A stretch of 64,000 bases of DNA from Thermoplasmatales archaeon. Its GTDB lineage: Archaea; Thermoplasmatota; Thermoplasmata; Thermoplasmatales; Thermoplasmataceae. Location of the stretch: positions 1,225,966 through 1,289,965 of the forward strand of contig CP060531.1 in assembly GCA_016806715.1 (NCBI GenBank), given 5' to 3'. Numbering within the stretch: position 1 is the stretch's first letter; every line of letters starts with the position of its first letter. Made by a program: the position numbers and the translations under genes. This document shows, in pieces, positions 10,034 to 15,569 of the stretch. Under the pieces are notes generated by a model. That model searched no databases. It had not been told where the DNA came from and worked only from the letters and a program-made list of their open reading frames with translations.

Positions 10034-10660
10034 TCAGGCTAGCTTTTTCTTCACTGCCTTCTCAATATCATTGTAAATATCCAGTGCCGCGTCAAGGATC
10101 AGCCTGATCTTAGCATCAAGTTCTGTCCTGGTCTCTGGATTTGATATTGATTTCAGGTTGATCATTGCATTGTAAAGCGCACCTTTTATGGCGGCCATAG
10201 CGAATTCTGATGCGCATGCGCTGTCAGTTATCGCATTCTTGTTGCCTTTTACAGCCAGATAAGAAGCCGTTTCAAGTATGGTTAGGGATTCCCTGGCTAT
10301 CTTAAGTGGTACGCCTATTGCAACTAGAGTTGCCTTTTCAATCTCTCCCTTCCGTTTATTTTTCTCTATATCAGTAGTCTTAGGCAGTGCCCAGGCGGAT
10401 ACTATAAGGTTGAATGCATCCTCATCCTCTTTCATCAGAGCACGAAGCCTTAGAGAAGTTTCAGAAGCAGTTTTTTCAATTTCCAGCATGCGTTCTTTTT
10501 CCGTTTCATATCCTTTTTTGTTCAGGGTCAGCGACGAGACCATCGAAGCTAGAGAAGATGCCACTACCGATACTAGCGCGCTGGCTGCACCTCCGCCCGG
10601 GGCGGGAGAGCCACTGGAAAGCCTCTTCATGAAACTATCGAGATCTTCCACATTAATCAC
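10034..10660 (-). CDS. Formimidoyltetrahydrofolate cyclodeaminase
   Basis: A 208-residue helical protein of the FTCD C-terminal type. The start contains SGSPAPGGGAASALVSVVASSLASMV (the P-x-P-G-G-G-S/A-A motif of the family), followed by long helices with KTASETSLRLRALMKEDEDAFN. It converts 5-formimidoyl-THF to 5,10-methenyl-THF and ammonia. Its start overlaps the end of the formiminotransferase gene by eight bases, so the two activities that are fused in animals are separate but coupled here. The typical gene length is about 200 residues. Confidence 0.92.
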   Translation of the reverse strand: MINVEDLDSFMKRLSSGSPAPGGGAASALVSVVASSLASMVSSLTLNKKGYETEKERMLEIEKTASETSLRLRALMKEDEDAFNLIVSAWALPKTTDIEKNKRKGEIEKATLVAIGVPLKIARESLTILETASYLAVKGNKNAITDSACASEFAMAAIKGALYNAMINLKSISNPETRTELDAKIRLILDAALDIYNDIEKAVKKKLA

Positions 10661-11552
10661 CCCACAATTTCTTCTCGAAAATCTGTGACGAGCTAAATCC
10701 GTTGAGCTGAAGGTAAAACTGTGCAGCTTCTGTTATGGCATCCATGGGAACCAGCCCGACAATCTCAGATTCAGCAACAGTTATCCCATACCTGGAGGAT
10801 TCCAGTTTCACCATCTCAAATGCACGATATATGGGGGTTTTCCTGAAGCTTGTAAGGTTCATGGATATTTGCACCATTCCCTTGTCTTCAAGGTAGAATG
10901 CCAGCGCCTTGACAAATGTGAATCCACCATCCCTGGCCCTGAGTGCCCTTGCAATCTTCTTGCCGGTGGATATATCCTTGGTGTTAAGGTTTACATTGTA
11001 GGCAACGAGGAAGTCCCGTGCACCTATTATGGACGCTCCTGCCGACCCTATATTTGCTGGTCCAAAATCGGGCTTCCATTCTTCGGTCACTATGGCGGTT
11101 CTAAGCTGTTCATACTGGAAACTCTTGTTTCTTATGTCCTCAAGGTTTTTCCTCCTTTCAGATCTTGCGGCGGAGCCGTACAGGTAAACCGGTATATCCA
11201 GCTGGTTGCCAACAAGCTCGCCCAGTTCTCCAGCCAGTTTTACGCAATCTTCTATCGTTGTTCCGGAAATCGGTATGAAGGGAATTACATCTGAAGCGCC
11301 GAATCTCGGGTGTTCCCCGGAGTGCTTGCTCATATCTATAAGCTCTGACGCTTTTTTTATTCCTGCAAATGCAGCCTTTACAGCATTTTCGTATGATACG
11401 ACAAAGGAAACCACCGATCTGTTGTGGTTAGGGTCCAGCTCGGCATCAAGAAGCTTTACTGTGTCGACCTTCGTAATTTCAGCTACAATCTGGTCTACAA
11501 CAGCTTTTTTCCGTCCTTCACTGAAGTTTGGAACACATTCAACAGTCCTCAT
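10653..11552 (-). CDS. Glutamate formimidoyltransferase
   Basis: A 299-residue protein matching the N-terminal and middle domains of FTCD. It opens MRTVECVPNFSEGRKKAVVDQI, with LLDAELDPNHNRSVVSFV carrying the family's D-x-x-x-N-H-N/R-S motif, then HPRFGASDVIPFIPISG. It transfers the formimidoyl group of N-formimidoylglutamate to tetrahydrofolate. No histidase or urocanase gene is seen in this window, so the source of formimidoylglutamate is not shown. It heads a leftward run with the cyclodeaminase and threonine ammonia-lyase. Confidence 0.92.
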   Translation of the reverse strand: MRTVECVPNFSEGRKKAVVDQIVAEITKVDTVKLLDAELDPNHNRSVVSFVVSYENAVKAAFAGIKKASELIDMSKHSGEHPRFGASDVIPFIPISGTTIEDCVKLAGELGELVGNQLDIPVYLYGSAARSERRKNLEDIRNKSFQYEQLRTAIVTEEWKPDFGPANIGSAGASIIGARDFLVAYNVNLNTKDISTGKKIARALRARDGGFTFVKALAFYLEDKGMVQISMNLTSFRKTPIYRAFEMVKLESSRYGITVAESEIVGLVPMDAITEAAQFYLQLNGFSSSQIFEKKLWGD

Positions 11553-11920: not shown

Positions 11921-14269
11921 ATGATTAAGACTATTATCAAAAGAGATGGGACAGAGGCTGCCTTCGACGAGGGAAAGATTATAAGGGCAATATACAAGGC
12001 CATGCTTTCCGTGAAAGTTGGCACGATGAAGGATGCCGAAGAAGTGGCAAAAATAGCTGTAAAGGAAATTTCAAAAATCGTTCAAAAGCCAACAGTGGAG
12101 CAGATACAGGACAAGGTAGAAAGTGCTCTTATGGGATACTCAGGCAACAACCAGTCATTCGTGGAAGTTGCAAAAGCATACATCCTTTACAGGGAAAGAA
12201 GGAGAATCATACGGGACGAGAAGGCATCAATCGGTGTCAAGGATGACCTGAAACTCTCAATAAACGCAATAAAGGTGCTTGAGGCAAGGTACCTCCTCAA
12301 GGACGAGGAAGGCAAGATCATAGAGACTCCAAGGCAGATGTTCAGGCGCGTTGCCAGTCATGTGGGCGCAATAGATGCTCTGTATGAGTACAGGAATTAC
12401 CAGCTTAGCGGAAAGTTAGCGGAAAACGGGAAGAAAATATCGGCCCTGTCAAAGACGCAGATCGAGGTTCTCAAAAGAGGTTTTGATGAACTCGTAAAGG
12501 AAGGCCAGATCCAGGGAAAGTTCGATGAGTTCATGAATTTCATCTATACCAAGCCAACGTGCTTTGAGGAAGCTATAAACGAGTACGAGGAAATGATGCT
12601 GAACCTTGAGTATGTACCAAACTCGCCAACAATGATGAACGCCGGGGCGAGACTGGGACAGCTTTCGGCTTGCTTTGTATTGCCTGTGGATGACAGTGTA
12701 GACGGCATATTCAGCGCACTGAAATACACTGCTGAGATACACAAATCCGGAGGCGGCACAGGCTTCTCCTTCTCAAGGCTGCGTGGGAAGGATGATATCG
12801 TAGGATCCACAAAGGGCGTTGCATCGGGCCCAGTATCGTTCATGAGGATATTTGACACAACAACTGATGTCATTAAGCAGGGTGGGAAGAGGAGAGGTGC
12901 CAATATGGGCATTCTGAGATTCGATCACCCGGACATCATGGACTTCATACTGAGCAAAGATGCCGAAAACACCATACTGAGCAATTTCAACATCTCAGTC
13001 GGTATGACAGATGAGTTCTTCGAGAAGCTTGATTCCGATGGGTTTGTAGAACTCAAAAACCCCCGCGATGGTAGGGTGACCGGCAGGATAAAGGCCAGCA
13101 CCATGTGGGACACAATAATAAACCAGGCGTGGAAAACAGCCGATCCGGGGCTGATATTCCTTGATGAGATCAACAAGAAAAATCCTGTTTCTCACATAAG
13201 TGAGATAGAGGCAACAAATCCATGCGGTGAGCAGCCGCTTATGCCATACGAATCATGCAATCTTGGCTCGATCAACCTTGCTAAATTTGTAAAGGATGGG
13301 GACATTGATTACGAGAAGTTGAGAAGCGTCATACGACTCTCGACCAAATTCCTGGACAACGTAGTGGACGCAAACAAATTCCCGGTTGAACAGATAAAGG
13401 AGATGACGAGGAAGACAAGAAAAATTGGACTTGGCATAATGGGATTTGCCGACATGCTCATCAAGCTCGGTATACCATATAACAGCGGCGATGCGCTTGT
13501 CATGGGAGAGCGTATGATGGCGTTCCTCCAGGACGAGTCTCACGAGGAGTCAAAAATACTCGCGGAAGAGAGGGGAGTCTTTCCGGGCTGGTACGGATCG
13601 AAATGGGAAGAACAGGGAATAAAAATGAGAAACTCCACCACAACAACCATAGCTCCCACGGGAACCATATCGATCATAGCAGGTTGCTCATCATCCATCG
13701 AACCACTCTTTGCCATAGCATTTGTGAGGCATGTTCTCAACGGGCAGGAACTCATAGAGGTCAATCCCCTGTTTGAGGAAATGCTCAGGGCCAAGAATCT
13801 TTACTCCGAAGAACTCATGAGGGAAGTTGCCAAGAGCGGCAATCTACACAACATTAACATAGATCCTGAAATAAAGCGTCTTTTCGTTACCGCACACGAA
13901 ATAGAGCCGGAATGGCATGTTCTCATGCAGGCTACCTTCCAGAGATACTGTGACTCTGGAGTATCCAAGACAATCAATCTTCCGTCTGATGCCTCTCCCG
14001 AGGACATAGGCAAGGCGTACAGAATGGCAAAAGACCTTCACTGCAAGGGGATAACTGTATATAGGGACCAGAGCAAGACACAGCAGGTACTTTACACTGG
14101 TACTGCAAGCAGAAAGGAGCCAAAGGAGAAAGTAGAGAAAAAGAAGGTCGAGAAGAAGGAAACAGAGGAGGAAAGCATAATGGAACTAATAGCCAAGGTT
14201 CCTGACAAATACCTCAAACTGGACTCAACCTTCGATCCTGCGTGCCCAACCGGCAAATGTGATAAATAA
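11921..14269 (+). CDS. nrdJ: Adenosylcobalamin-dependent (class II) ribonucleotide reductase
   Basis: A 782-residue enzyme. Residues 1-95 form an ATP-cone allosteric domain ([20 protein letters not shown]). The catalytic barrel has the redox cysteine in [11 protein letters not shown] (about 250), the radical cysteine in NPCGEQPL (about 433-440), and the loop [19 protein letters not shown]. The C-terminal arm carries C775 and C780 in the C-x4-C spacing of the shuttle cysteine pair, just before the end. A lysine/glutamate-rich linker precedes the arm. The enzyme makes deoxyribonucleotides without oxygen. A 38-residue cysteine-rich gene follows after 14 bases and is likely co-transcribed. Confidence 0.95.
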
Positions 14270-14283
14270 TATAACCATTTTTT

Positions 14284-14400
14284 ATGTGTGCAGACTGCTC
14301 TTCAGAATGTGAATGCACCTCCTGCTATTCGTTCAGGCACAATGCAGCTTGCCCCATCTGCGGGCACACAATTTTTCTTGATTGCTGTCAGGGCTTCTAG
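14284..14400 (+). CDS. 38-aa cysteine-rich protein following ribonucleotide reductase
   Basis: ATG 14284 to TAG 14398-14400 encodes 38 residues with nine cysteines. The layout is C2-x2-C5-x3-C9-x-C11-x2-C14, then C23-x2-C26 in CPICG, and a final C34-C35, plus two histidines. CPICGH is a classic zinc-knuckle half. It lies 14 bases behind nrdJ on the same strand, and its stop shares four bases with the stop of the antiporter gene on the other strand (CTAG). I do not recognise the family. It could be a zinc-ribbon partner of the reductase, a thiol reductant, or a metallochaperone; none of these is shown by the sequence. Confidence 0.6.
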   Translation: MCADCSSECECTSCYSFRHNAACPICGHTIFLDCCQGF

Positions 14401-15569
14401 TAATCCAAAGTTTTATCCGGCTTTCCCAGCCTGTCTCTTCTATCAGCCAGCACCGGCATTATTAATGAGAGTATGATCGACCCTAAAATAACGAGAGAAT
14501 AGAGGGAGCTGCCAATTACGCCGTCCTGAAACGCGACTGCCGCTATGATTATCCCGACTGCGCCTCTTCCACCGAGAATGGCCATTGTAGTCCTTGGATT
14601 TATGTCTCTCATCAGGGTTTTGCTTGAAAAATAGGTCAATACTCCTCCGACTATTGCACTTATTGCGACCAGTGACACCAGCAGGGGGAAATACGAACTT
14701 CCCGGTATTGTAGCATCGAGGCCAGCTATGGTGAAAAAAATTGGTATGAAGAAACTTTCATTAAGCCTGTTCAGCGTTCTCCTGATAATCCCGATCAGTT
14801 CCTTTCCCACTATGACCTCACTTACAATCAATCCCGAAAAGAGTGCTCCCAGTACGTAGGAAATGCCTATAATATCCAGTATAGCGGATACCAGAAGACC
14901 CCAGATTATTATAAGGCCAAATATTATTTCCTCGCCACGTTCAGTTGCATGCAGCCTTACAAAAAAGTTGACAATTTCCGTTGAATGCCTCTTTATGATC
15001 CGGTCTAGCAGCAGGATTATAACTATCAGGATAGCGATCCCGATCATTTTTTCCACGACCCTCTGTGGATCTATTGTGGCGGACAGAAGAATAAAAGCCA
15101 TGATGTCAGTTATGACTACACTGGCAAGGATATGATTTCCGCTCGAACTCTTGAGGAGTGAATACCTGTTTACAAGGACTGAAATTATGGAGATAGATGG
15201 AACCCCTATCCCAATTGATACTGCTATGGATTCGGTAAGACCAACCTGAAAAACGAAATTCGCTATTGCTACCATTGTTATTAGTGGAATGACGAAGCTC
15301 GAAATAGTCAGGATCCATCCCTTACCGGAATACTTAGTCAGCAGGTCTGAAGTTACATCGACTCCTATCAGAAGCACGATGAAGAAAAGCGCGATTTCTG
15401 AGAGTCCATGCAGTACTGCATTGGGTTGAAGGATATTGAATACTGCCGGCCCAAGGACAAGTCCCACTAATAGTGCACCCACGACAGCGGGGAAACCCTT
15501 CACTTCGAGCAGTTCCCCTATGATTAGGGAAGCCGACAGCAATATTAGTACGGAGGTAATCAGATCCAT
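14397..15569 (-). CDS. Cation/proton antiporter, CPA2 (KefB/NapA-like)
   Basis: A 390-residue membrane protein, essentially all transmembrane (about 12 segments), without a soluble TrkA-N domain. The opening LITSVLILLSASLIIGELLEVKGFPAVVGALLVGLVLGP is typical of the Na+/H+ exchanger superfamily, and ILASVVITDIMAFILL carries the acidic residue of the unwound ion-binding helix. FGLI/GRGAVGIIIAAVAFQDG in the last third matches the conserved antiporter core. Likely exchanges Na+ or K+ for H+, important for pH homeostasis in acid. Ion preference cannot be read from sequence. It converges on the cysteine-rich gene. Confidence 0.87.
   Translation of the reverse strand: MDLITSVLILLSASLIIGELLEVKGFPAVVGALLVGLVLGPAVFNILQPNAVLHGLSEIALFFIVLLIGVDVTSDLLTKYSGKGWILTISSFVIPLITMVAIANFVFQVGLTESIAVSIGIGVPSISIISVLVNRYSLLKSSSGNHILASVVITDIMAFILLSATIDPQRVVEKMIGIAILIVIILLLDRIIKRHSTEIVNFFVRLHATERGEEIIFGLIIIWGLLVSAILDIIGISYVLGALFSGLIVSEVIVGKELIGIIRRTLNRLNESFFIPIFFTIAGLDATIPGSSYFPLLVSLVAISAIVGGVLTYFSSKTLMRDINPRTTMAILGGRGAVGIIIAAVAFQDGVIGSSLYSLVILGSIILSLIMPVLADRRDRLGKPDKTLDY

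Follow-up and report, generated by a model that had tools for sequence, protein, structure and literature searches.

In the 64,000-nucleotide stretch of Thermoplasmatales DNA analysed here (the window), the frame at 14284–14400 is a real, strongly conserved coding gene under strong purifying selection, and its product, a 38-residue protein with nine cysteines, is probably a lineage-restricted C(P)XCG-like zinc-finger micro-protein acting through a specific protein partner. The gene is single-copy, mostly self-standing and usually preceded by its own promoter-like box. In the window it follows the class II ribonucleotide reductase gene nrdJ, and the original prediction saw in its product a detached zinc-binding tail or thiol partner of that enzyme. 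The notion of a cysteine-rich, putatively metal-binding protein holds up on sequence grounds; the link to the reductase does not, as the gene lies elsewhere in the other eight genera that carry it. The locus comprises the following features:

11921–14269, plus strand: nrdJ, adenosylcobalamin-dependent class II ribonucleotide reductase, 782 aa (NCBIfam NF005010, 1374.9 bits; TIGR02504)
14270–14283, plus strand: 14-base gap from nrdJ to the small gene, with no TATA-like box at −36 to −24 in the window's genus
14284–14400, plus strand: nine-cysteine protein MCADCSSECECTSCYSFRHNAACPICGHTIFLDCCQGF, 38 aa, ATG at 14284 and TAG at 14398–14400; 33 distinct homologues, pN/pS 0.02–0.19
14314–14361, plus strand: putative zinc-ribbon core C-x2-C-x8-C-P-x-C, codons C11 to C26; its cysteines are invariant in all members, and the Nop10 (E 0.011) and HVO_2753 (E 0.019) profile matches span these columns
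14383–14388, plus strand: vicinal cysteine pair, codons C34–C35, within the C-terminal DCCQGF motif; invariant
14397–15569, minus strand: convergent CPA2-type cation:proton antiporter (Pfam PF00999), its stop codon overlapping that of the small gene

The frame has the start, the stop, the nine cysteines and the position 14 bases behind nrdJ on the same strand that were first ascribed to it. Its cysteines are residues 2, 5, 9, 11, 14, 23, 26, 34 and 35; of the earlier reading of two C-x2-C pairs and CPICGH the latter stands, but the pairs are three (C2/C5, C11/C14 and C23/C26), CPICGH being the last of them. A cysteine fraction of 0.237 places it at the top of the 706 frames of at least 25 aa in the 64-kb window (runner-up 0.185), and among 58,587 such frames in 60 random windows, drawn from a first-order Markov model matching its dinucleotide composition, a single one was at most 60 aa long with at least nine cysteines. 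Weightier than this composition, and the basis of its status as a gene, are the full-length homologues, one each in 37 of 77 family genomes, the invariance of all nine cysteines and the strong purifying selection. A first search of 61 relatives recovered full-length homologues down to 42% identity, and a census of 77 genomes of the family Thermoplasmataceae showed the gene to be strictly single-copy in the 37 carriers, which belong to nine of 19 genera and include Ferroplasma acidarmanus Fer1, Acidiplasma aeolicum VT, a Cuniculiplasma sp. and the uncultured clone ASS_A1. Across the 33 distinct sequences twelve alignment columns are invariant (the nine cysteines, the start, G27 and G37) and six nearly so (D4, R18, H19, P24, D33, Q36). 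The original prediction had proposed looking for loss in close relatives and weighing synonymous against non-synonymous change, and both bear the gene out: it recurs 12–16 bases behind nrdJ, without stops or frameshifts, in each of the three genomes of the window's genus in which nrdJ was found, and pN/pS indicates purifying selection in the fourteen pairs compared, with synonymous sites near saturation and cysteine codons swapping freely between TGT and TGC.

Outside the family, the samples of class and phylum yielded no nine-cysteine member; weak matches there over columns 11–29 include Nop10 (e.g., G022:C2 and G014:C1:1363299). No relative was present among the viral contigs and plasmids searched, which together with the lack of an informative PHROGs match led to rejection of a viral or plasmid origin. 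Within the family, the distribution of the gene on the NrdJ tree requires at least five changes: it appears in the branch beside the Thermoplasma-like genus of G026 and G008 and is missing in several sub-branches, although many family genomes are incomplete, so that a lone absence is no proof of loss.

Most members are 38–40 aa long, with Ferroplasma and Acidiplasma forms reaching about 50 aa by a C-terminal extension. Sequences from these two genera and from genus g18 (L064, L065, L070, L071) continue beyond QGF into a short tail, e.g., IKHKYDMDFKL, so that lineages differ in their C-terminus. A divergent subtype, in which CGC replaces CGH, occurs in genera g17 (L017, L111, L112) and g9 (L016), the g17 sequences ending in CCLGY; genome G035, sharing its genus label with a genome of this subtype, has the standard form. 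Two weak partial matches with internal stops in a Ferroplasma-genus genome (G141:C12:2280-2375 and G141:C2:179460-179543) are possibly leftovers of extra copies, or chance.

The original prediction did not recognise the family, and indeed none in Pfam or NCBIfam describes it, nor did the literature on small cysteine-rich proteins of Thermoplasmatales yield a description. The best profile resemblances are to small archaeal zinc ribbons (Nop10 and HVO_2753 as above, and eS31, E 0.013), all below significance and matching on C-x2-C-x8-CPxCG, and hhalign against local HVO_2753 proteins aligns columns 11–28. An AlphaFold2 model is of low confidence (pLDDT 64, pTM 0.32), and metal sites of such proteins are not predicted by the method, according to a haloarchaeal study (PMC11241148); a Foldseek search with this model gave nothing significant (best E 1.9, the hits being for the most part RING-type zinc folds matched by chance). 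Pfam Prok-RING_4 reached E 0.00076 in the best member; it was rejected as an identity, since the RING spacing is absent, matches are confined to nine of the 33 members, and the score of the window copy, 12.9 bits, falls short of the cut-off of 27. The CXC/pre-SET Zn3Cys9 module was likewise rejected, because its published consensus, CX[C/H]X2-13CX4-7CXCX5-60CX2-4CX1-2CX2-15CXN (PMC3447885), does not describe a protein that lacks an initial CXC and ends in CCQGF. The size lies below the 70 aa of the C(P)XCG class, and both of its motifs are present: a CPxCG with invariant cysteines and glycine, and a partner CxxC without the glycine, a variant accepted for these micro-proteins (PMC11241148). 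Zinc was bound by nine of 14 haloarchaeal C(P)XCG proteins tested, the other five being without it (PMC11241148), so that by analogy zinc binding by the nine-cysteine protein is likely, not certain.

In the mechanism we propose, C11, C14, C23 and C26 would form a compact zinc ribbon, and the outer cysteines C2, C5, C9, C34 and C35 might build a second metal site, or one or two of them might stay as free thiols. The conserved non-cysteine residues (D4, R18-H19, P24, G27, D33, Q36-G37; YRHN / GHTIFLDCCQGF) would offer a surface for a specific cellular protein, the role also proposed for the C(P)XCG micro-proteins of haloarchaea. The small gene has ended up behind nrdJ in the window's genus, where it probably shares the nrdJ transcript. 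Against this reading weigh the low-confidence model with its empty Foldseek search, the profile resemblances that stay below significance, the five zinc-free haloarchaeal proteins and a gene neighbourhood that points to no partner. The proteins are acidic, with a net charge of −1 to −6 across members, arguing against RNA or DNA binding.

The main rival, which we regard as unlikely, is a metallothionein-like buffer, a thiolate cluster that would store zinc or copper or detoxify metals with no specific protein partner. Two histidines beside nine cysteines in 38 aa, the CxCxxC and CC motifs, and the metal-rich acid environments from which many hosts appear, by their named records, to come would all suit such a function, as would the acidity that makes nucleic-acid binding unlikely, and bacterial metallothioneins have a zinc-finger fold holding about four zinc ions (PMC10612145). 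However, many non-cysteine residues are as conserved as the cysteines, which a pure buffer would not need, none of the 33 members has a Pfam metallothionein match at E up to 1, and genes for metal transport or metal regulation do not recur beside it. A copper-chaperone link to heme-copper oxidase was rejected, as COX1 (PF00115) is found also in genera without the protein and shows no co-variation with it.

Improbable, in our estimate, is descent from the HVO_2753 (PF07754) or Nop10 micro-proteins as a ribosome- or RNA-associated zinc ribbon. The closest solved sequences are indeed Nop10, eS31, HVO_2753 and ribosome-bound zinc ribbons, and the first 29 columns are collinear with the second half of HVO_2753, yet these profile matches are not significant, and the protein is acidic, the window copy even lacking lysine. 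Pfam scans gave no match over the curated cut-offs of PF07754 or Nop10 (PF04135); the PF07754 gene is a different locus, and a genuine Nop10 lies at G000:1445415-1445558. Each of the 35 high-quality genomes of the family in fact has separate PF07754 and Nop10 genes, and as both occur in the same genomes as the nine-cysteine gene, replacement of either is rejected: the nine-cysteine protein is additional to them, not a substitute.

A role as partner of class II ribonucleotide reductase, whether as detached zinc-bearing tail, thiol donor or assembly factor, or through a wider link to B12 metabolism, is quite improbable. It draws on gene order and on precedent: the small gene is co-directional with nrdJ and 12–16 bases behind it in three genomes of the window's genus g1 (G000, G001, G003), it follows nrdJ at a distance of about 1.6 kb in some members of a second genus, g13 (G015, G031, YP4.bin104), it is near the B12-biosynthesis gene cobJ (precorrin-3B C17-methyltransferase) in three g18 genomes (L070, L071, L121), directly behind it in two of them (G036, G020), and other class II enzymes have a separately encoded cysteine-rich domain, NrdJb (PMC5704485). 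That cobJ is a second B12-related neighbour after nrdJ is possibly coincidence. Against this, an opposite-strand gene intervenes in g13, whose remaining carriers do not have nrdJ near the small gene, and the other genera lack any linkage: the gene follows trpS in g5, is surrounded by transporters in g12 and stands among unrelated genes in Ferroplasma (g10) and g17. Of the nine carrier genera, one has the frame directly behind nrdJ, the position in which the original prediction proposed to look for it in other Thermoplasmatota genomes. With neighbours varying between genera, a conserved operon partner was rejected, and no partner is suggested by gene neighbourhood across the carriers; the antiporter, too, is absent beside the small gene in G003.

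The reductase itself tells against the partnership as well. The C-x4-C pair first noted in the window is present at the C-terminal end of its NrdJ (stop TAA at 14267–14269), and NrdJ keeps this pair, CPTGKC, with or without the small protein, including in the Thermoplasma-like G026 and G008. NrdJ occurs in every well-assembled genome of the family, the small protein in only about half. Nor does the cysteine pattern recall the cysteine-rich domain of NrdJ, which measures 150–220 aa and whose cysteines are Cys-920, 923, 933, 936, 939 and 945 (PMC5704485); no subset of the nine alignment columns (2, 5, 10, 12, 15, 24, 27, 34, 35) reproduces its steps of 3, 10, 3, 3 and 6.

Upstream signals point the same way. 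Outside the window's genus, a TATA-like box stands some 30 bases ahead of the start codon, at −36 to −24, in 20 of 30 members (5.7 ± 2.0 in shuffles), which speaks against a reductase tail or thiol partner, and ribosome-binding motifs are almost absent before the gene, a combination that fits a leaderless monocistronic mRNA in those genera. The box is missing in all three members of the window's genus; since the 14-base gap region thus has none, unlike most other genera, co-transcription with nrdJ is plausible there. In most genera nrdJ keeps divergent formiminotransferase and cyclodeaminase genes on its upstream side, whereas its downstream side varies, so that a local rearrangement probably put the small gene behind it. 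In the window these neighbours are two separate genes (FTCD_N/FTCD and FTCD_C, 10034–11552). In several family members about 350 aa are inserted in frame into nrdJ near residue 440 (L060:1196-4642, L136, L137, L138, L139, L131, L140), a stretch that in G001 (L060) matches Intein_splicing and LAGLIDADG_3; long nrdJ frames of 1107–1174 aa suggest the same insert in G012, G028, G023, G033, G035 and G036, and the window's nrdJ has none.

Very improbable, finally, is a composite in which the nine cysteines make a minimal thiolate fold of a new kind, two-metal or polynuclear, and the protein serves, in at least some lineages, as a small thiol or metal partner of B12-dependent ribonucleotide reduction, its gene usually being unlinked although it adjoins nrdJ in one genus and is close to cobJ in another.

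As a C(P)XCG-like micro-protein, the reading preferred here, the product of this gene extends the archaeal zinc-finger micro-proteins by a 38-residue family not described before, and its nine invariant cysteines, in so short a chain, make it a conserved metal-binding candidate of unusual density. Carriers include the culturable acidophiles Ferroplasma, Acidiplasma and Cuniculiplasma, in which the protein is open to purification and testing. The case also cautions against reading function from adjacency to an essential enzyme in a single genome when relatives have the gene elsewhere.

Among known systems, bacterial metallothioneins of the SmtA type are similarly small and very rich in cysteine, with histidine, but no match to them arises from the Pfam library, and the conserved non-cysteine surface argues against a pure buffer. 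The CXC/pre-SET module shares the number of nine invariant cysteines, though not its published consensus. The NrdJ cysteine-rich domain and NrdJb resemble the protein in being cysteine-rich and possibly zinc-bearing, and in the window's genus it too sits beside nrdJ; they themselves have six cysteines otherwise spaced and are usually fused to or encoded with NrdJ (PMC5704485), whereas the small gene adjoins nrdJ only in g1, is about 1.6 kb off in part of g13 and is otherwise unlinked. Closer in sequence are the Nop10 zinc ribbon, which shares a CxxCxxYxxxxxCPxCG core but has a C-terminal part that the acidic nine-cysteine protein lacks and is separately encoded in the same genomes, and HVO_2753, which has the collinear C-x2-C ... 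C-x2-C-x8-C-x2-C; relative to the latter family the protein has CxC and CC in place of the first CxxC and stays below the Pfam cut-off. The nearest parallel in kind is found in the haloarchaeal C(P)XCG micro-proteins such as HVO_0758, itself confined to haloarchaea, with a leaderless transcript and pleiotropic mutant phenotypes (PMC10716476). There is no detectable homology between the two groups, and the nine-cysteine protein, at 38–40 aa, has five more invariant cysteines (in an N-terminal CxxC, a CxC and the CC tail); they are alike in falling below 70 aa with two CxxC-type motifs, one of them CPxCG, in being confined to one archaeal lineage, and in having a transcript that is leaderless or apparently so.
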